A stretch of 64,000 nucleotides of DNA, taken from Arbacia lixula. Its lineage: Eukaryota; Echinodermata; Echinoidea; Arbacioida; Arbaciidae. The position numbers and the translations under genes were made by a program. The stretch is taken from assembly GCA_963669155.1 (NCBI GenBank), contig OZ022586.1, positions 21,045,510-21,109,509 on the forward strand, read 5' to 3'. Positions 13,257 to 57,489 of the stretch are shown here, in pieces. The notes beneath the pieces are model-generated. The model was not told where the DNA came from and did not search any database. It saw nothing but the letters and a program-made list of their open reading frames with translations. Numbering within the stretch: the stretch's first letter is position 1; the number at the start of each line of letters is the position of its first letter.

Positions 13257-14135
13257 GGATAGCATACGAAGAGCGGCACTAGAGGTCGGGGGCGTGGTCG
13301 AGCGTGGCCAAGTCAAAGATACGTCACATTCATGCATATTCATTATACCTCGCGCGCGCGCTGCTGTTAGTGCACAACGAATACGAATACGGGCGCTCAC
13401 AAGTTTTGTCATAAAATAATGTTCCCCGACCGCTCGTGCCGTTCATACGACCTCGAGTTCCGCTCCTTTTATCATTGTGTCTCAGAAAGTCCAACCTTGA
13501 AGGAAAACGAATCGACATAGATGGAGAAAAACTAACTGACCTACGATTTGCAGACGGTGTGGCACTGAATATAAGCTCTGTACAAGATATGGAAGAACGG
13601 TTGCGAAGTCTGAACGTTGAAAGCAAAAGGGTTGGCTTGCAAATGCATTATGGGAAGGACAAAATTCATGACAAACTTTGAAACAACAGAGGAAATAAGA
13701 ATAGGCCATCACTAGTTAGAGAAAGTCAAAAGTTGCAAGCACTGGGCCAAACCTTCAAAATGGAGGATAATACAAGAAAAGAAGTATTAACAAGGATTAA
13801 AGGAGGATGGAGATGTTACAGAAAACTTTTAACTGACACTGATGAAAATACCACTTGCAATGAGGAGAAAGATCTGACCCGTGCATTTTAACGACATTGA
13901 CGTATGGAGCAGGAACCTGGTCTACAACTAAAGAAATGGAACATAAATTGAGAACAACACAAAGAGCTATATGGACAGAAGAATGCTCAATTTAACATTA
14001 GTTGACAAAGTGAAGCACAGTGACATACGGCAGAAAACAAAGGTAAAATATATCATAGTAAAAAATAAAGAGATGAAGTGGAGATGGGCACTACACTTAT
14101 ATAGAACACAAGACTAAAGGTGGGCCAAGAAACTC
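13257..14135 (+). repeat. Left inverted arm of the giant element
   Basis: Near-identical reverse complement of 30100-30985. It opens with a piece of the 70-bp unit in minus orientation, then a CpG-rich stretch with a (CG)n run near 13351, then a 70-bp unit piece in plus orientation (13425-13475), then a LINE fragment. Differences from the right arm are single bases plus a few short gaps, for example the loss of about 9 bp near 13471. Confidence 0.85.
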
Positions 14136-15677: not shown

Positions 15678-15758
15678 TGATGATGATGATGATGATGATG
15701 ATGATGTTGATGATGATGACGATGATGATGATGACGATGATGATGATGATGATGATGA
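15678..15758. repeat. (GAT)n tract, probable 3' tail of the L2/RTE-like LINE
   Basis: Imperfect GAT triplets follow LINE-like coding and directly precede the 70-bp array. Microsatellite 3' tails are usual for this LINE class. The Asp-rich frame translated from it is not a gene. Confidence 0.8.
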
Positions 15759-15766
15759 CTATATAT

Positions 15767-16611
15767 CTCAGACCGAGCGACCGCTAGTGCCGCTCATACG
15801 ACCTGTAGTGCCGCTCCTTTCAGTTTTGTGTACTATATATCTCAGACCGACCGCTAGTGCCGCTCATCCGACCTCTAGTGCCGCTCCTTTTACTATTGTG
15901 TACTATATATCTCAGACCGACCGCTAGTGCCGCTCATCCGACCTGTAGTGCCGCTCCTTTTAGTTTTGTGTACTATATATCTCAGACCGACCGCTAGTGC
16001 CGCTCATCCGACCTCTAGTGCCGCTCCTTTTACTATTGTGTACTATATATCTCAGACCGACCGCTAGTGCCGCTCATCCGACCTGTAGTGCCGCTCCTCT
16101 TACTATTGTGTACTATATATCTCAGACCGACCGCTAGTGCCGCTCATCCGACCTGTAGTGCCGCTCCTCTTACTATTGTGTACTATATATCTCAGACCGA
16201 CCGCTAGTGCCGCTCATCCGACCTCTAGTGCCGCTCCTTTTACTATTGTGTACTATATATCTCAGACCGACCGCTAGTGCCGCTCATCCGACCTCTAGTG
16301 CCGCTCCTTTTACTATTGTGTACTATATATCTCAGACCGACCGCTAGTGCCGCTCATCCGACCTGTAGTGCCGCTCCTTTCAGTTTTGTGTACTATATAT
16401 CTCAGACCGACCGCTAGTGCCGCTCATCCGACCTCTAGTGCCGCTCCTTTTACTATTGTGTACTATATATCTCAGACCGACCGCTAGTGCCGCTCATCCG
16501 ACCTCTAGTGCCGCTCCTCTTACTATAGTTGTGTACTACATATCTCAGACCGACCGCTAGTGCTGCTCATACGACCTCTAGTCCCGCTCCTTTTAGTTTT
16601 GCGTACTACAT
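15767..16611 (+). repeat. Left tandem array of the 70-bp unit, 12 copies
   Basis: Units start at 15767, 15841, 15911, 15981, 16051, 16121, 16191, 16261, 16331, 16401, 16471 and 16544. Nine of the units are exactly 70 bp. Each begins ctcagaccgaccgctagtgc and contains the nonamer agtgccgct twice. The first unit has a 4-bp insertion and the last is more diverged. The same unit in reverse forms 29601-30099. Confidence 0.95.
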
Positions 16612-16942
16612 AATGTGTAATCTTGTATCTTGTATCTTGTATCTTGTAGAATCTGGTGTAAAATGTATCGGTTTTAGGGACCATTCATTGATCTACTTTG
16701 TGATTAAATGGTCATTCATATATCGCTCTAACCTACTTAAGATTAGTAAGTCTCGGACGTTCCGTTTTTTTTTGATGAACAGAAATTTCGTAGGGACTTA
16801 GGGGAAATTGAATGGGATGGTTTTTATTCAAATAAGAACAGCGTTCAAAGTCTTTGGGATCGTTTTAAGTCGTTGTTTAATCGGCTGAGCGATAAACATG
16901 CCCCAATAATCTCTGTCAGAAGAAAACAGAACGGAGTACCTC

Positions 16943-29600: not shown

Positions 29601-30099
29601 CGAGTCTGAGATCTACAGCACAAATTAGGGAACGTTGCTACATGTGATATGAGCGACACTAGCAGTCGGTCTGAGATACTGTAGCGGAACTAGAGGTCGG
29701 ATGAGCGGCACTAGCGGTCGGATGAGCGGCACTAGCGGTCGGTCTGAGATATATAGTACACAAAACTGAAAGGAGCGGAACTAGAGGTCGGATGAGCGGC
29801 ACTAGCGGTCGGTCTGAGATATATAGTACACAAAACTGAAAGGAGCGGCACTAGAGGTCGGATGAGCGGCACTAGCGGTCGGTCTGAGATATATAGTACA
29901 CAATAGTAAAAGGAGCGGCACTAGAGGTCGGATGAGCGGCACTAGCGGTCGGTCTGAGATATATAGTACACACTAGTAAGAGGAGCGGCACTACAGGTCG
30001 GATGAGCGGCACTAGCGGTCGGTCTGAGATATATAGTACACAAAACTGAAAGGAGCGGCACTAGAGGTCGGATGAGCGGCACTAGCGGTCGCTCGGTCT
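29601..30099 (-). repeat. Right tandem array of the 70-bp unit, about six copies
   Basis: Reverse complement of the left array. The phrase ggtctgagatatatagtaca recurs every 70 bp near 29741, 29811, 29881, 29951 and 30021, with more diverged or shortened units at the inner end. The outermost unit carries the same 4-bp insertion (gctcggtctgag) as the outermost left unit. Confidence 0.92.
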
Positions 30100-30985
30100 G
30101 AGTTTCTTGGCCCACCTTTAGTCTTGTTTTCTATATAAGTGTTCTGCCCATCTCCACTTCATCTCTTTAATTTTTACTATGATATATTTTACCTTTGTTT
30201 TCTGCCGTATGTCACTGTGCTTCACTTTGTCAACTAATGTTAAATTGAGCATTCTTCTGTCCATATAGCTCTTTGTGTTGTTCTCAATTTATGTTCCATT
30301 TCTTTAGTTGTAGACCAGGTTCCTGCTCCATACGTCAATGTCGTTAAAATGCACGGGTCAGATCTTTCTCCTCATTGCAAGTGGTATTTTCATCAGTGTC
30401 AGTTAAAAGTTTTCTGTAACATCTCCATCCTCCTTTAATCCTTGTTAATACTTCTTTTCTTGTATTATCCTCCATTTTGAAGGTTTGGCCCAGTGCTTGT
30501 AACTGTTGACTTTCTCTAACTAGTGATGGCCTATTCTTATTTCCTCTGTTGTTTCAAAGTTTGTCATGAATTTTGTCCTTCCCATATGCATTTGCAAGCC
30601 AACCCTTTTGCTTTCAACGTTCAGACTTCGCAACCGTTCTTCCATATCTTGTACAGAGATTATATTTAGTGCCACACCGTCTGCAAATCGTAGGTCAGTT
30701 AGTTTTTCTCCATCTATGTCGATTCGTTTTCCTTCAAGGTTGGACTTTCTGAGATAAAGTACACAATGGTAAAAGGAGCGGAACTAGAGGTCGTATGAAC
30801 GGCACGAGCGGTCGGGGAACATTATTTTATGACAAAACTTGTGAGCGCCCGTATTCGTATTCGTTGTGCACTATAACAGCAGCGCGCGCGCGAGGTTAAT
30901 GAATATGCATGAGTGTGACGTATCTTTGACTTGGCCACGCTCGACCACGCCCCCGACCTCTAGTGCCGCTCTTCGTATGCTATCC
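30100..30985 (-). repeat. Right inverted arm of the giant element (with LINE fragment)
   Basis: Reverse complement of 13257-14135, containing the same broken L2/RTE-like LINE piece read on the minus strand. Here the LINE fragment joins the 70-bp array directly, without the 1.63 kb present in the left arm. The atagc repeat follows at 30986-30990. Confidence 0.85.
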
Positions 30986-37769: not shown

Positions 37770-40700
37770 CTGCAAGACACAGCAAGTAGACCAATGCAAT
37801 ACCTCATTTTCAAAGTTCAAGTAAATTCTTCCCACTGAAAAAATCCCATTCATTTAAGTGGCATAGAAAAGACATGAATGGATACAAAATAATGTGTGAC
37901 ATAATGTGAGAGGGTAGCACCAAGGAAGGAAGGAAAATGGGATCAATTTATGTGAAAGTATCCAATCAACAAAGACCTCCACAACCACAAGTTTGCTGAA
38001 ATTTGTTAAATCATTTCTGGATTTATAGCATAAAAGTGTAATTTTAGAATTTGATCTTGACCTATGACCTTTATGACCCAAAATTTAATCAGTTAATTGT
38101 CTGGTCAAACATTACCAGTGTACTATGATAATGAAATTAAATGAATTATTCCTCGAGTTATCGCATGAATGAGATCCGGACAGACAGACAACCCTGTAGC
38201 ATAATACCATCCAGCTGCTTCATCCAGCTATGACTTACCTTTGTGCTTGAATGCTGCCTTGATGTACCAGTAGAGCTTGGTGAAGAGGTTGAGAGGAGAG
38301 GGCGTGGCCGACGTCCGGTTCATCTTCCTGATGAGCTGGGCCCGGCCGTACTTCCACTCCTTGTCTGATTGGGCCTGGATGCGCTGGTAGGTGTCAGACA
38401 TCATAGCGATGAGCAGGTTGATAAGAACAATGAGGGTCACGATCAGGTAGGTGCCAAAGACGATCTTGATGAGGGTAAGGGTGAAGGCTGGATGGCGGGT
38501 GATGGACGGGAGGGCTTCTGGCTCGACAAGGCCGAACAGGGAGAAGAAGAGGATGGCGAAGGTGTCAGCGGGGGTCTGAATGGAGCTGTCCGAGCTGGTG
38601 CTGTTAGTGGCCCGGGGGTAAACGGGCTGGTAGACGGCTGCCAGGTGCAGCATGAAACCCACCAGGAAGATGAGGAGGATGACCATGAAGCGCATCAGGT
38701 CTTTCATCAGGTCCCGGATGATGATCGCCCAGGGGCCAAACAGGTGGTGGAAGGACAGGAACTCCAGGAACAGCGCAAAGCAGAACAGCACACACCAGGC
38801 GAAGAACTGGTTGCGAATGTAGACAAGGAGTCGCTGGGTGTCATCATCGAAGATGAACGCGACGAGGTGGATGATGCAGGCGACGGACGAGAAGGCCAGG
38901 ATGATGACCCGAATCCAGCCCAGGCCCTGGCGGTCATCGGGGTTGGTGATCTCGGTGACCAGAAGTCCGGACAGCCACAGCAGCAGCAACCACTCGTACC
39001 ACGTCGGGATCAGCGACGGGTCCTCGATGAAGGCCTCGATGAACGGCGTGATCACCGTGGTTAAGATGAGAAGGATGATCAGGTAGATGTGGGAGACGAG
39101 GTACGTCATGAACTTAATGATGGGCAGCTTGTTGAAGCGGTGCTTCAGCGGGAGAGAGAAGAAGACCCAGATGGGAGGGAAGATCACCAGCATGAAGAAC
39201 AGCAAGATGATCTTCCAGCTTGCCCACTTCAAGTTCCCGACCCAGACGTCTGAGAGGTATTTCTGGACTGAGGGGTGCGCCACCACGTCCTTCTGCTCGC
39301 ACTCCATGAGGACGTCGAGGAACGGAACGTTGCGCTCGTCGACGGACCTGAGCAGCGTGCCGGGGCTCGTGGTGCTGGAGGTAATGGAGATGAGGTCAAC
39401 GGCCATCGTCTCGCAGAAGTCACTGCCCTCCAGCAGGTCCCTGGCTCGCTCCTTCTCCTTGCCCGACTGGTGCCGGAAGTTCTTGGCCAGCTTGACCGCT
39501 GTGTCGATGGGTGCCGGGGAGCGCAGTACGAACTCTCTGATGGAGGCGTTGGAGTTGTAGCGCCCACACACCATCAGGTCAAAGACAAACTGGGTACAAG
39601 TGAGAGAACATGATCAGAAATAGATCAGATGGGGCAAAAGAAATTAAAAAATAATGGTCCATAACAGGCCAATACAAGTCAATGGATCATGTAATTTGCA
39701 AGCTCAGAGCGCATGGTGCCCTATGGGTTGTAGCAGCTACACACCATCATGGCATGACATACTAGATGAAAACAGGTGAAGGGGTGTAGACTGCAATAAA
39801 AACAGGTTGTTTGCAAAGGCAAGATAAAAGAAACAGATCAGTGAGCATTGAGGTCTTAAGTAACAAATATACTAATTGTGAATCTTAAATAGTAAAGTTC
39901 AACTTAAAACAATCAAGAAATTTCTGGATAAATATTAACAAATACAACAGTTATGATCAAATATTTTTTATTTGTGGTCTTTGCTTACCTTCCTGTCATC
40001 CATGAGGTGGGTGGTGCTGTGGTCTTTCTTCATGAGGAAGCTGAGCACTCCTTGGTGGTTGGAGCTAGCAGCGAAGCAGATGGGTACTTTGCCATCCTTT
40101 GTCTCAAACTTAGGGGAACCCCCACTCTCTACCAACAGGGTGACCACATCCTGGTAGCCAGCCTTGGCAGCAAAGTGAAGGGCTGTCCAGCCATTCTGAG
40201 GGGTCGGATAGGATGATGGACAAAGAGTTATAATAATAATAATATACAATCAAACTCAGGGGAATTCCCTCTCTCTACCAGCAGAGTGATGCTATCCTGA
40301 TAACCATAACAGCAAAGTGAAGGGCTGTCCAGCCATTCTCAGGGGTGAGATAGGATGAAGGAGGAATAGTAATGATACTAGTCTATCTCTCTATGTACGT
40401 GTCACATCCTGTGACATAGACACTCATGGAGTGCCACAACTCTCTGTCATGATTGGGCTTTTTGCTCTGCTACAAGGTCAGTCAGGCAGCTTTTCTTTAT
40501 CTTCCTTCTTTCCCTGCATTTTCCCTTCTCTCTTTTTTTCGTCAAAGCAAACTTGTAAAAGCCACCGTTACGAAGAACACGCCCCAAAATTCTCAATTGT
40601 CTAATTCTAAGCTGAGGTATCAACTTCTCTTTTATATTGGCTCCCTGGGAAGGATATTAGTAATAAAATTGAGACGATTCGAAACCTAGCCCCAATCTCT

Positions 40701-46700: not shown

Positions 46701-49700
46701 ACAACAAAATATATAAGTTTGTTTGGAACTTGAATCTCCTTTACTTGTTTTTAGTACATGAATATTTTAATAACAATCACTGACAAATTGCAATATGGTA
46801 TATAAACTATATCACCTGACCAAACCCAACATGCCATATGTACAAAGGCTTGGGACTAAGTGTACAAACAAGATATGATGTTTGGTGGAAATGCCATTAA
46901 TCAATCACAATAAAATATTTAGGCGAGAAGTATTCACAATATATGACACAGTGTGACGAATGAATGAATGGATGAATAAATGAATGCTTCCATGAATGAA
47001 TGAAGGAATGAATGAATGAATGAATGAATGAATGAATGAATATCTAATTGAATGAACACATTAATTAAAGACATCTCAATTAAAGACTTTAAATTGGTGA
47101 TAATTATGACAATATTATGATGAATAAAAAAATGGATGAATCAATGAATAAATGAATGAATTAATGATTGAGTGAATGAATAAATGGATGGATACATACA
47201 TGATTGAAAGATGGAATGAATGAATGAATGAATGAATGATATTGGTATAATAAATGAATGCAAAGCTAGAATAATCTTACAGGGACACATATTCATAATC
47301 TCCATGATGATATCATACCAATTAATATTAGAGATGAACATGTCAACCCTACAAATGGTGGGAACAACCTATTTGTAGCTGCAATGTGTTGATTTGTGCA
47401 TGTCATATATAAGTTGTTGCTTCAATAACATAATTTAGATGTCATCTTGTGCCAGGTGTCATACACATTTCTCATTTTTGTGCAAGGAGATGAAACCAAA
47501 TAAAGTTTAAAGGCACAAATCGACTCATCGCAATCCGAAAGTCTACTGTGAGAGGGCCCTATCTAATAAAGAATTGTAAATGACCACAAATTGAATTGCA
47601 ACTGATATCTATCGCAACTCTGTACATTAGTGATAAAGTATAAGATCTCTTGAGCAATTCAGATGAATCACAACTCTTTATAAGACGGGGCCCCAGTACT
47701 GTACATTTAATGGGGAATACTAAGTGGATGGTACAGGGAGGGGGGAGGGGGGGCGGTAGGAGAGGATGTGTGTAGGATGTAGCTCAATGTATACATTATA
47801 TGTGTCTGTGTATTACGTCAGGGATTACCATATTAACTGTAAATTTAGGTTTATAAATTCAGTATTATCTATTACCCCAATCAGAAAAGAGCAGTTATCA
47901 CAACTTAAGAGCTGCAAAAAAATTGTAATGTGTTTACATGATGCGAACAAAAGGTAATATTTTAATGTATTGTTGTCACCTAAGTGTCAAACTTTATTAA
48001 AGTTAACCCATATTGTTTTTTTTTTGTGAATGACAATTGGTACTACTATTTCCTGACAAATTTAATGTCGACAGGAAAAAAAAAGATTTTTGTCTGACTT
48101 GTTTTTCGTTCATTTGCAGGATGGGGCGCGCTATCCTTGCTACTGGGTGTATGCCTAACATTTCTTTGTAAATTGATATTACCCCAGAAAGCCCTTTCAA
48201 TAAAAGGAAATAAAATTGTTGAACACTTTCATCACTGTGATTTTTTTTTGTGAGTTTATAGTTATATAGTTATATAGTTATACAACAGGTTTCTAGTAAC
48301 ATGTGAATGTAGATGTATATCATTGAGAGACACAATGCTCCAGTCGTCCCATGATCCACCACACAGCCACAGTTGGAGTTTGTTTGCAGTCATGTTATAC
48401 ACTAGCACTAGCACTAGCACTAGCACTTAGCACTAGCACTAGCACTAGCACTAGCACTAGCACTTAGCACTAGCACTAGCACTAGCACTTAGCACTAGCA
48501 CTAGCACTAGCACTAGCACTAGCACTAGCACTAGCACTAGCACTTAGCACTAGCACTAGCACTAGCACTTAGCACTAGCACTAGCACTAGCACTAGCACT
48601 AGCACTAGCACTAGCACTAGCACTAGCACTAGCACTTAGCACTAGCACTTAGCACTAGCACTAGCACTTAGCACTAGCACTTAGCACTAGCACTTAGCAC
48701 TAGCACTAGCACTAGCACTAGCACTAGCACTAGCACTAGCACTAGCACTAGCACTAGCACTAGCACTTAGCACTAGCACTAGCACTTAGCACTAGCACTA
48801 GCACTTAGCACTAGCACTTAGCACTAGCACTAGCACTAGCACTAGCACTAGCACTTAGCACTAGCACTAGCACTAGCACTTAGCACTAGCACTAGCACTT
48901 AGCACTAGCACTAGCACTAGCACTTTGCACTAGCACTAGCACTAGCACTAGCACTAGCACTAGCACACTAGACTAGAAGCGGACATGACTGGAAACAAAC
49001 TCTGAATGTGGCTGGGTGGTGCATTGTGGGATGTGGTCATAGTGTCTTAAAGGGCATATACTGTACTGGGAAGACAAAAGGCCTTTAAAAGGTGATCATG
49101 AGCAATCTTCTTGCCAATGGTCTTAAATTCATGTATTGTCCATATCAGAAACTTGCACAGAGTTATTTGCCCTCAAATTATCCAAATTTGGAGTTATTAG
49201 TGATTTAATGACAAATCTTTAAAATGTTCGGGCCGAACACAATGGGGATTTGTGTTTTAATCACTAATTACTCAAAATCTGGGTCATATGAAGGCAAATA
49301 ACTTTCAGAAAGTTTCTAAAATGGACAATACATGAATTTAAGACCATTGGCAAGAAGATTGCTCACGATCACCTTTTGAAGGTTTTTTGTCTTCCCAGTA
49401 CAGTAAATACCCTTTAATGTAGCTCTATGGATGTGGTACAGATAATTTCAGGGAGAATTTCAGACTCTCTTTATTACATACACCAACAATCAATCAAAAA
49501 CCAACACAGGGATTGTGATAACAACTTGTCAAAGGACATAACATTATCATGAATAAAGGAATACTTGATAAATCATGCTGGGATATGAAGTCACAAAATG
49601 ACATGATGAACATCAATATAGATATATACGGGACAGAATGACTATCTAGAAAGTTTGTAATAAGATTTGCAACTTACAACATCATCTATTTTGATCTGAT

Positions 49701-51602: not shown

Positions 51603-54600
51603 CTATATTGGTTGTTTTCTCCTCCTTCTATCTCTCTTGCTCTCTTTCACTTATTCTTCAAACAACCACTAATATAAAGTTAATTGTTAATCTCTGAACA
51701 AAGCCAACTGCATAACAATACAATGCCTGGGTCTCGCGCTTACAATATCTGTTGCATTAGAGTCTGACTTCAGTTTGAGGAGCGTCTCGCAGACCTCTAG
51801 CTTCCCGTTTTGAGCTGCTAAATGAAGGGCGGTTCTCTTGGCCTGCAGAAGAGATGTACACAAATTAAAAGAAAGAAATAAAGTGCATGCACACAAGAAA
51901 TATATGGTCAAAATTGAAACGAGGAATTGTTCAAAGCAAGAGCAGAACATATAGCTGTTACCCATGAAGTGATATCAGTAATGATATGAAATAAAATCAA
52001 TATAAAATTACTTGCACCAATCTGATTTGTACACGATCTCCTAGGAATTGATAAAAGGAATATCGGAACATTTTACTGTTCCCTACCTATTGAGGTTACG
52101 TAGTGCTAATCAGTATTATTATTTCATGTGAAATTGGTACAAAATGACTTGCATAAATCGAAATGAAAAACTGATAATTTGAACACTCCCTGTGACATCA
52201 CAACTGTACTGACCAATGAGAGTGCATCAATGGCGGCTCCGTGGTTGTGGATGAGTAGGTTGACCAGCTCGTTGTGGCCGTTCTGAGCCGCTAGGTGGAG
52301 GGGTGTCACTCCTATCTTTGACTTGGCGTTAACGAATGCCTTGTGCCACAGCATGATGTCAGCCACAGTGAGGTGGCCGTTAGCAGCTGCCAGATGAAGA
52401 GCTGCCTTGCCATGCTGTAGGAACAGGAGAAGGAGAAACTGATTTACAAGTCATGCACAGCTAGGCATGGTGGCATGCACCTACAATCCAAGTGACTGTG
52501 GAAGTTAGAAATTGACCAGATTAAGATGTTCGGACCCTGTCCGATTCTTTTGGATGGTGATGGAAGAGGTCAATTCCAGACATAAAAACATGTAATCATA
52601 TCTGATTTCAACCCATTTGTATGTAAAATGCGCACACACACACACTTCTGAAAGTAAGGCACTCATTAGTTTATTAATATACCTGTCCCTATCTCACTTG
52701 AGACTTGCAGGAAAACAAAGAGCAATCAAATCATGAAAAGGTCAAATGAGGGAATTATGAAAATGCAAGATTTCCTCTCTGCATTCTCACCTCATCAAAG
52801 ACGTCTACCCTGGCGTTCTGCTGTAGCAGAATTCTCACACTCTCCTCATGCCTCTAACCCAAACCCTAAACCTTAACTCTACTCACCTCATCAAAGACGT
52901 CTCCCCTGGCATTCTGCTGTAGCAGGATTCTCACACTCTCCCCATACCTCTAAACCTAACCCTAAACCCTAACCCTACTCACCTCATCAAAGACGTCTCC
53001 CCTGGCATTCTGCTGTAGCAGGATTCTCACGCTCTCCTCATTCCTCTAAACCCAACCCTAAACCCTTACTCTACTCACCTCATCAAAGACGTCTCCCCCT
53101 GGCATTCTGCTGTAGCAGGATTCTCACGCTCTCCTCATTCCTCTAAACCTAACCCTAAACCCTAACTCTACTCACCTCATCAAAGACGTCTACCCTAGCA
53201 TTCTGCTGTAGCAGGATTCTCACACTCTAACCCCAACCCTAAACCCTAACCCTACTCACCTCATCAAAGACGTCTCCCCTGGCATTCTGCTGTAGCAGGA
53301 TTCTCACGCTCTCCTCATTCCTCTAAACCCAACCCTAAACCCTAACTCTACTCACCTCATCAAAGACGTCTACCCTAGCATTCTGCTGTAGCAGGATTCT
53401 CACACTCTAAACCTACCCCAAAACCCTAACCCTACTCACCTCATCAAAGATGTCTACCCGAGCATTCTGCTGTAGCAGGATTCTCACACTCTCCTCATTC
53501 CTCTAAACCTAACCCTAACCCCTAAACCTACTCACCTCATCAAAGACGTCTACCCAAGCATTCTGCTGTAGCAGGATTCTCACGCTCTCCTCATTCCTCT
53601 AAACCCAACCCTAAACCCTAACTCTACTCACCTCATCAAAGACGTCTACCCTAGCATTCTGCTGTAGCAGGATTCTCACACTCTAAACCTACCCCAAAAC
53701 CCTAACCCTACTCACCTCATCAAAGACGTCTACCCAAGCATTCTGCTGTAGCAGGATTCTCACGCTCTCCTCATGCCTCTAAACCTAACCCTAAACCCTA
53801 ACCCTACTCACCTCATCAAAGACGTCTACCCTAGCATTCTGCTGTAGCAGGATTCTCACACTCTCCCCATGCCTCTAAACCTAACCCTAAACCCTAACTC
53901 TACTCACCTCATCAAAGACGTCTACCCTAGCATTCTGCTGTAGCAGGATTCTCACACTCTCCCCATGCCTCTAAACCTAACCCTAAACCCTAACTCTACT
54001 CACCTCATCAAAGACGTCTAGCCTCGCATTCTGCTGTAGCAGGATTCTCACGCTCTCCTCATTCCTCTAAACCTAACCCTAAACCCTAGCCTACTCACCT
54101 CATCAAAGACGTCTACCCTTGCATTATGCTGTAGCAGGATTCTCACACTCTCCCCATACCTCTAAACCTAACCCTAAACCCTAACTCTACTCACCTCATC
54201 AAAGACGTCTACCCTAGCATTCTGCTGCAGCAGGATTCTCACGCTCTCCTCATGCCTCTAAACCTAACCCTAAACCCTAGCCTACTCACCTCATCAAAGA
54301 CGTCTACCCTTGCATTATGCTGTAGCAGGATTCTCACACTCTCCCCATACCTCTAAACCTAACCCTAAACCCTAACTCTACTCACCTCATCAAAGACGTC
54401 TACCCTAGCATTCTGCTGCAGCAGGATTCTCACTCTCTCCTCATTCCTCTAACCCTAACATTAAACCCTAACCCTACTCACCTCATCAAAGACGTCTACC
54501 CTAGCATTCTGCTGCAGCAGGATTCTCACACTCTCCCCATACCTCTAAACCTAACCCTAAACCCTAACTCTACTCACCTCATCAAAGACGTCTACCCTCG

Positions 54601-57489
54601 CATTCTGCTGTAGCAGGATTCTCACGCTCTCCTCATTCCTCTAACCCTAACATTAAACCCTAACCTACTCACCTCATCAAAGACGTCTACCCTAGCATTC
54701 TGCTGCAGCAGGATTCTCACACTCTCCTCATTCCTCTAAACCTAACCCTAACCCCTAAACCTACTCACCTCATCAAAGACGTCTACCCTAGCATTCTGCT
54801 GCAGCAGGATTCTCACGCTCTCCTCATGCCCCTCCTCAGCCGCTACCAGGAGCGGAGACCAGCCGTTCTGAAAGAAACAAAGATACAAAAATACTTCACT
54901 ATAAAGCAACACAACATTTCCCACAATCTTACTGCATTCCTGCTGCTTGCATGATTGACAGAGATTCCTTCTTTGTGTGAATCCTGATATTGTCTTATAC
55001 TCATTCTTGCACATCTCCTTCTCCATTCCACCCCCCCCCCCCCCTCTCCATTGCTACCAGATAAAGAAAGAGCAATAATTTGGAGTTTCTGTACATGTTG
55101 ACAATGATTCCATCTTCTTCTTGTCCTCAAACTTTTCTCCACCCCCCTCTCCTCCTCTGCCTCTAACTCCTCCCTCCTCTTTACTCTCCTCCCTCTCCTC
55201 TTTCTCCTCATTATCCATCTTCTTCAGCTCTGCAGCACTACCACCTACTTTGCTTTGCTTGTTGACAGCAAGCTGTGTGTAACTTGGACCCAGATGTTCC
55301 ACCATCTTGAGTAAGATATCCGCATTGCCAGCCCGAGCACAGTAGTGCAGAGGTGTCTCGTGGGTCTGATGTGGGAAATAGGAAAGATACAATAAGGAGA
55401 GTTTGTGAAATGTAAAATGAAAATGATGAAAGCGAGATAACAATGAGATGAAGATGGGATGACATAAGATGGAATGCAACACAGGTGAAGGCTTGGTAAA
55501 TATTACTTTAGAGGTTGACAACAACATTTTGAAAATTGGTGAGCAGTTTTATGGACAAACTCCTGTATGTCTCACATGTTCGGATGGCCGAGCAGACATG
55601 TGGCACACTTCTTGCCAACAATCGGCGGGGTCTGATTGGGTAGTCGAACTGCACTTTTTTTGGAGCAGTGTAAAGGAAGTATGAAAAATCATGATATTTC
55701 TATAAAAAAAAAATTGGTGAGTTTTTGAGTGTAAATGTCACAGCAGTTTAGCAATCTTGTTAATTATGATGATGATAATGTCAATAATTTAAATTCAATT
55801 AAATACCTACCAGTTTAGTGATAATGTTGATGTCTAATTAATACTACATCAGGAGCTGCATAATCTCACAATCCTCAGAGGCAAGTACCCCTCACTCCCT
55901 CCCAACCCCTATCCCCACCTACCCCCCTCCCCTCTCAGGGTTTCACCCTATCAAGGTGCATCATACCAGTTTAGTGATGATGTTGATGTCTGATTAATAC
56001 TCAGGAGCTACATGATCTCACAGAGGCAAGTACCCCCCACTCCCTCCCAACCACTACCCCCACCTACCCCCCTCCCCTCTCAGGGTTTCACCGTATCAAG
56101 GAGTATCATACCAGTTTAGTGATGATGTTGATGTCTGCATCATACTCCAGCAGTAACTGCATGATCTCACAATCCTCAGAGGCAAGTACCCCCCCCCCCC
56201 CCCCTCCCTCCCAACCCCTACCCCCACCTACCCCCTCCCCTCTCAGGGTTTCACCGTATCAAGGTGTATCATACCAGTTTAGTGATGATGTTGACGTCTG
56301 CATCATACTCCTGCAGTAACTGCATGATCTCACAATCCTCAGAGGCAATTACCCCTCACACCCTCCCAAGCCCTACCCCCACCTACCCCCCCCCCCCCCC
56401 CTCCCCTCTCAGGGTTTCACCGTATCAAGGTGTATCATACCAGTTTAGTGATGATGTTGATGTCTGCATCATACTCCAGCAGTAACTGCATGATCTCACA
56501 ATCCTCTGAGGCAATTACCCCTCACACCCTCCCAACCCCTACCCCCTCCTACCCCCCTTCCCCCTCCTACCCCCCTCCCCTCTCAGGGTTTCACCGTATC
56601 AAGGTGTATCATACCAGTTTAGTGATGATGTTGATGTCTGATTAATACTCCATCAGGAGCTACATGATCTCACAATCCTCAGAGGCAAGTACCCCCCCCC
56701 CCCCAACCCCTACCCTCACCTACCCCCTCCCCTCTCAGGGTTTCACCGTATCAAGGTGTATCATACCAGTTTAGTGATGATATTGATGTCTGCATCATAC
56801 TCCAGCAGTAACTGCATGATCTCACAATCCTCTGAGGCAATTACCCCTCACACCCTCCCAACCCCTACCCCCACCTACCCCCACCTACCCCCCTCCCCTC
56901 TCAGGGTTTCACCGTATCAAGGTGTATCATACCAGTTTAGTGATGATATTGATGTCTGCATCATACTCCAGCAGTAACTGCATGATCTCACAATCCTCTC
57001 CTGGGTAATGGCTCATCTCCTTGGTGATCTCAGCAGCGTAGTGGAGAGGGGTTTCTCCCTCCTGTAGGGAGAGAAAGAGCAAAGAAACAACAGTTTAAAA
57101 GTCAAACTTATAAACACCTCATTGAAATACTAATACATCAATCAATTATCAGGTGCTGTCCCTCGTCCGGAGTTGGTAGCTATGCACCTCCATCTTCCTC
57201 TATCTTCATTTCTTGTTCTGATGATTGCAAACAAAGGCCTGTCCACTGTCTAATGTTACCATAACATAGTATTTAATGTATTTTCTCTCTCTCTCTCTCT
57301 CATTTTCCTCCTGTCAGCCCTTCATGTAATAGCTTCATGAGATCTCCTTTTTCTAATACGATGTCCGGCATACACAGTCAAGCTTTCTCCTCTGTACTGT
57401 CTCAGACAGACTGTCTCTCTCTTTCTTTCTCTCTCTCTCTCTCTCTCTCTCAATCTCTCTGTCTCTCTTTCTCTCTCTCCCAATCTCTC

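Follow-up and report, generated by a model that had tools for sequence, protein, structure and literature searches.

Why should one intron hold 22 copies of the same 5′ splice site, and which of them would be used? The question is raised by a 64,000-nt stretch of the sea urchin Arbacia lixula (the window; C11:21045510-21109509 of a 607-Mb assembly in 590 contigs), in which the end of an ankyrin exon in a minus-strand gene is followed by 21 further copies of its 3′ part, each with a donor of its own (hereafter the decoys). Judged from its sequence, the gene is TRPN (NOMPC-like): the joined predicted exons had NOMPC (5vkq) as their best match in a search against solved structures only (E = 1.8e-158; ankyrin-1, 1.6e-132), and Ank domains are present in the predicted protein. 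We consider it probable that the array is a neutral minisatellite of the type described in amphioxus as a mirage, that is, a repeat built on an exon-intron junction, and that it is spliced out from its first donor. In a long minus-strand open reading frame (ORF) of the same window, at 38231-39613, TRP transmembrane segments are suggested by eye.

The repeated element is the edge of an ankyrin exon

The main array and the two exons that enclose it are laid out as follows (window coordinates).

52214..52414, minus strand: next TRPN exon, the expected partner of the first donor (acceptor ctacag|CATGGC; donor TTG|GTCAGT)
52786..54763, minus strand: 21 decoy units; each comprises a spacer, an exonic part (62 nt from the 3′ end of the exon, or 50 nt in three 84-bp units) and GTGAG
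52791, minus strand: last exonic base of the final copy, with donor GAG|GTGAGA, then unrelated unique intron and no TTAGGG-like spacer beyond
54735..54763, minus strand: the first of the 21 TTAGGG-like spacers that separate the copies (G skew on the sense strand, 0.99 across the spacers)
54769..54867, minus strand: true ankyrin exon, 33 codons, 99 nt (acceptor AG at 54868-54869; first donor GAG|GTGAGT)

The true exon follows the acceptor tttctttcag|AACGGC and encodes a single 33-residue ankyrin repeat. Tandem Repeats Finder (TRF) places the array at 52786-54827, with a period of 96, 21.7 copies and a score of 3214, and reports a higher-order period of 191 bp; individual units are 84-97 bp long. 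In transcript order, each unit begins with a TTAGGG-like spacer of about 29 nt, continues with the last 62 nt of the exon and ends with GTGAG. The anchor CTCACCTCATCAAAG is exact in 22/22 copies (one true, 21 decoys), the donor reads GAG|GTGAG in all 22, and its longer form GAG|GTGAGT is found in 21/22. The initial annotation of this DNA had described 22 half-exons with intact 5′ splice sites inside a TRPN gene, and this description holds. So does its statement that no copy has an acceptor, at least by a crude measure: none of the 314 AG dinucleotides within the array is acceptor-like, the best having 53% pyrimidines in the upstream 15 nt, whereas values of 73-93% were obtained for the gene's own acceptors (11 located, of 13 tried). 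As in a mirage, the unit spans the exon-intron boundary and a splice signal is present in every one of the 22 units.

The alignment to NOMPC (5vkq) runs ungapped from exon 54769-54867 into the next exon, with no extra residues at the junction; use of the first donor would thus leave the protein free of residues encoded by the array. In that case, the whole array would lie in the intron and be removed when the first donor (after 54769) joins 52414. Only that donor belongs to the full 99-nt exon with its real acceptor, and the decoys would normally be passed over, given the preference of exon definition for the nearest donor. Under such a scheme, both the copy number and the decoy donors are most likely neutral.

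Turnover of the array and conservation of its donors

Of 96 aligned columns, 26 vary among the copies, 14 of them in the 29 columns of the spacer and 12 in the 67 columns of the half-exon and GTGAG. The initial annotation had pointed out that all copies keep the donor while other bases drift, and had proposed that substitutions at donor and non-donor sites be compared. In this comparison the donor columns did not emerge as significantly more conserved. All nine are invariant over the unit (hypergeometric p = 0.050), as are all eight that fall within the half-exon (p = 0.19), and the longest invariant run, of 17 columns, covers the donor (permutation p = 0.077); these tests treat columns as independent and ignore the history of the copies. 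Codon constraint in the decoys was likewise not supported, as six of the 12 variable half-exon columns are at third positions (p = 0.18).

Three pairs of units among the 21 decoys are identical when gaps are ignored, and their members stand one, two and three units apart. On average, units two apart show 4.8 differences and direct neighbours 7.0; the greater likeness of units two apart matches the 191-bp higher-order period. Together with that period, the identical units one to three apart suggest that one unit or several at a time were duplicated. Four single-copy changes were located in the distal copy (in this one assembly). Intact donors would be the expectation for a young, homogenised array.

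Exon-edge repeats elsewhere in the TRPN gene and in a second gene

The main array is accompanied by others, of which those in the TRPN region are listed here.

40250..40380, minus strand: degenerate (79%) acceptor-side duplicate of the exon at about 39990-40210
55808..56932, minus strand: second exon-edge array, 7 decoy copies at a spacing of 145-174 nt, with G-rich sense spacers; last copy CTG|GTAGGT, then unrelated intron
56933..57061, minus strand: upstream ankyrin exon to which the second array belongs (donor CTG|GTATGA)
L010:5483-5902 (C11, about 21.125 Mb), same strand as TRPN: third array, the repeat of an exon edge further upstream in the TRPN region

Like the main array, that at 55808-56998 is an exon-edge repeat, the last ~66 nt of exon 56933-57061 being repeated together with the donor. 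Seven of its eight donors, the true one included, read CTG|GTATGA, and the last reads CTG|GTAGGT. In the third array the true donor is GTAAGA (predicted U1 pairing, -8.2 kcal/mol), whereas both full-length decoys read GTAAAA (-5.5 kcal/mol) and so are without the G at +5; either sequence could be the ancestral one. An older, degenerate copy lies further on from this array (array and copy within L010:5250-5910). No Pfam family was found for the shortened peptide of the third-array exon (..NQLPLHMAAARSSGGLTLVQQLLRTSGREARLTKDA), and tblastn gave a weak match (E = 0.16). Its position between TRPN-like matches on the same strand (L009:7133-7333, E = 1e-16; L013:1509-1598, E = 1.6e-5) leads us to regard this exon as a TRPN ankyrin exon.

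Smaller duplications were also detected. An isolated duplicate of a donor edge at L009:5717 has lost its GT and has AT instead, and duplicates of acceptor edges lie at L013:1713, at L009:7461 and at 40250-40380 of the window. About 23 kb below the start of the window, at L026:6734-7060, there is an acceptor-side array of 5 x 66 bp, composed of a pyrimidine tract, cag and the start of an eIF3e-like exon; the peptide of this exon has no Pfam family and is matched by solved eIF3e chains (E = 4.5e-19). Exon-edge arrays and duplicates thus occur in two genes, eIF3e-like and TRPN, and on the donor as well as on the acceptor side, a distribution in keeping with mirages.

The ends of the arrays and the origin of the spacer

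Past its last copy, the main array gives way to an intron that reads GTGAGAATGCAG, homology stopping 5 nt into the intron. The TTAGGG-like sequence is found only between copies (21 matches with at most two mismatches, all inside the array). The initial annotation had taken the first ~40 bp of the intron to be part of the repeat; of these, GTGAG is indeed repeated, and the remainder is the spacer. It had also suggested that the array was seeded by a telomere-like CCCTAA start of the intron, a suggestion that finds no support, as the last copy is without TTAGGG-like sequence. The passage of this copy into unrelated sequence suggests instead that the intron probably did not originally begin with the telomere-like stretch, which we infer to be, in all probability, filler acquired with the duplication. 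In the second array the homology takes in the first 3 nt of the intron, GTA, before the sequence changes, and in the third GTAATT follows the last partial copy. The three multi-copy donor arrays (window 52791 and 55811; L010:5483) are alike in that a GT marks the far limit of homology, to within 5 nt. In the main array, the last copy (52786-52881) departs from the true exon at five sites, each of them a third codon position. This copy looks like a once-functional exon edge, perhaps from another allele.

Exon edges and donor motifs against their background

Are exon edges, or donors, especially prone to such duplication? A local duplicate (blastn within 3 kb) was found at 8/52 TRPN exon edges (five donor, three acceptor) and at 54/600 intronic positions of the gene outside the exon-derived arrays (p = 0.11). 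An earlier null, in which these arrays were left in, gave 56/400 (p = 0.46). The 26 exons used were delimited manually, on the basis of ORFs and tblastn matches; some exons are probably missing, and some of the edges are misplaced by one base or more. Since the excess of duplication at exon edges over intronic positions is not a clear one, we rejected the idea that such edges form a hotspot.

Across the genome, three MAG|GTRAGT motifs at intervals of 79-109 nt were matched 91 times; the same pattern reversed, as a control, was matched 81 times. These figures count matches, not arrays: the 91 can be grouped into about 19 places (the control was counted by matches only), and 36 of them come from one 52-bp array on C5. 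The M of the motif excludes GAG donors, and the main array is thus outside the count. Tandem repeats that carry a donor consensus show no evident genome-wide excess. A unit of ~52 bp is repeated at length at C5:172901-174931, with AAGGTGAGT in many of the copies.

Decoy use, donor strength and the composition of the spacers

If any of the 21 decoys were used, translation would run through 39 codons and then stop, the last six codons being intronic and a TAG standing at intron nt 19-21; the initial annotation had foreseen this truncation. The transcript would presumably be removed by nonsense-mediated decay (NMD). Pairing with U1 is predicted at -10.5 kcal/mol for GAG|GTGAGT, the strongest value among the TRPN gene donors found, and at -9.7 kcal/mol for GAG|GTGAGA of the last copy. 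Strength does not predict which donors carry arrays, being -10.5 in the main array and -4.2 in the second.

The spacers are strongly biased in composition. Their sense-strand G skew is 0.99 in the main array and 0.64 in the second, as compared with 0.08 over 13.7 kb of sequence, chiefly intronic, from elsewhere in the gene, and TAGG occurs 8.85 and 2.37 times per 100 nt, respectively, as compared with 0.19; those of the third array are G-rich by eye. UAGG and GGGG form a silencing code for hnRNP A1/H. An exon extended to a decoy would hold UAGG/GGG-rich spacers, perhaps acting as exonic silencers, and the G- and UAGG-rich sense spacers could silence the decoy donors. Exonic silencers, and most tested intronic elements, are reported to suppress the intron-proximal site when placed between competing 5′ splice sites (PMC1877881), which would favour the first donor here. 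The skew may have another cause, namely that G-rich non-template DNA promotes instability.

A wider proposal, which we regard as doubtful, is that exon-edge arrays are tolerated because their spacers hold a position-dependent splicing code, in which UAGG and GGG support the first donor as intron and silence the downstream donors within an extended exon. If so, large donor mirages would survive only with such spacers, and the choice of the first donor would be written in the spacer and not in the donor. Independently of this proposal, should splicing consistently choose the first donor among 22 that are essentially the same, the locus would be a natural experiment that separates the strength of U1 pairing from exon definition and spacer context.

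Weighing the explanations

The initial annotation had left two options, neutral growth or a control element. Neutral growth fits best, because the donor columns are not significantly conserved, because decoy donors differ or are lost in other copies, and because there is no clear excess at exon edges or genome-wide. Several observations weigh against it. All 22 GAG|GTGAG donors are intact, and the longest invariant run spans the donor; the half-exon columns vary less than the spacer columns (12/67 versus 14/29); a duplicate at L013:1310 keeps its donor; and exon edges have local duplicates more often than positions outside the gene (8/52 versus 29/400, p = 0.048). In addition, among 19 arrays in 264 kb scanned, three have a donor-like motif in nearly every unit and one has the reversed motif. 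One of these three, L026, is the acceptor-side array on the other strand, in which the motif is not that gene's donor. Four stretches of 10 kb each, taken from C1-C4, left the number of arrays at 19.

The alternative that survives best, unlikely as we think it is, makes the array a modulator of splicing that depends on copy number: decoys would compete for U1 and divert some transcripts to NMD, so that longer alleles would give less channel, although the array would not have been selected for this. Twenty of the 21 decoys share the 9-mer of the true donor, with the same predicted pairing, and the last is nearly as strong; any decoy use would give a stop; and in human CBS, where the repeat has the same form, lower activity is reported with more repeats (PMC5188458). 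The mirages of amphioxus Adh3 and globin genes, on the other hand, are reported to occur without disturbance of splicing. By analogy with CBS, a modest dosage effect is possible.

It is very improbable that the copy number was inflated or altered by the assembly. Long, near-identical arrays are prone to copy-number error, and three unit pairs are identical here. Yet they are the only pairs without differences among the 21 decoy units, a 195-bp query from the array finds it at a single location in the assembly (11/11 matches, all inside the array), and smaller duplications of the same kind are seen at other exons. Least credible of all is a selected splicing or kinetic control element (a U1 sponge, or competition between donors), for which the 22/22 intact donors and the presence, within one gene region, of three similarly built donor-side arrays might speak, but whose donors, supposedly kept by selection, show no significant protection (p = 0.050 and 0.19), differ or are lost in other copies (the third array; L009:5717), and have no evident excess genome-wide (91 versus 81).

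Other repeats in the window

Two copies of a sequence of about 880 bp, 97.5% identical, stand in inverted orientation about 16 kb apart (13257-14135 and 30100-30985), and between them lie inverted arrays of a 70-bp unit (15758-16612 and 29683-30091). The pair with its arrays is possibly a foldback-like or other repeat-ended element. A (CACTAG)n array of about 91 copies occupies 48400-48966.

Relation to mirages and to the CBS repeat

The initial annotation held that no precedent of this form had been described. There are such precedents, in the amphioxus mirages (PMC3087553, PMC3902484) and in the 31-bp variable number tandem repeat (VNTR) of human CBS (PMC2630376), and the main array is a large new example of an already described form. 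Our account of mirages and of CBS draws on PMC3087553, PMC3902484, PMC2630376, PMC1395315 and PMC5188458.

Mirages are reported in amphioxus Adh3 and in the globin genes BflGb6 and BflGb9, in Adh3 and the globins without interference in regular splicing (PMC3087553); similar repeats are described in PGBD5, and troponin C is mentioned (PMC3902484). Like the arrays described here, they span the boundary and are found in more than one gene (PMC3087553, PMC3902484). They differ in copy number, with 6 and 3 copies in two BflGb6 haplotypes against 22 here, and the TTAGGG-like spacer and the presence of several arrays in one gene are features of the sea urchin locus. Tandem repeats at the boundaries of human segmentally duplicated genes, which can yield alternative splicing and new introns (PMC2812944), are likewise placed at exon-intron boundaries. 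Their units, however, are of 30 bp and repeated four times on average, and half of them lie within coding exons.

The CBS repeat is located at exon 13-intron 13 and is given as c.1444_1467+7(16_21), that is, 24 exonic and 7 intronic nt in 16-21 copies, so that there, as here, the donor itself is repeated (PMC2630376). Its unit is shorter and has no long spacer, and for CBS both variation in the population and an effect on activity are reported, enzyme activity being lower with more repeats (PMC5188458). With the sea urchin array two questions become testable: whether output is tuned by the number of repeats at an exon edge, which has been reported for CBS, and by what route such repeats may give rise to new introns and exons, a proposal made for mirages.

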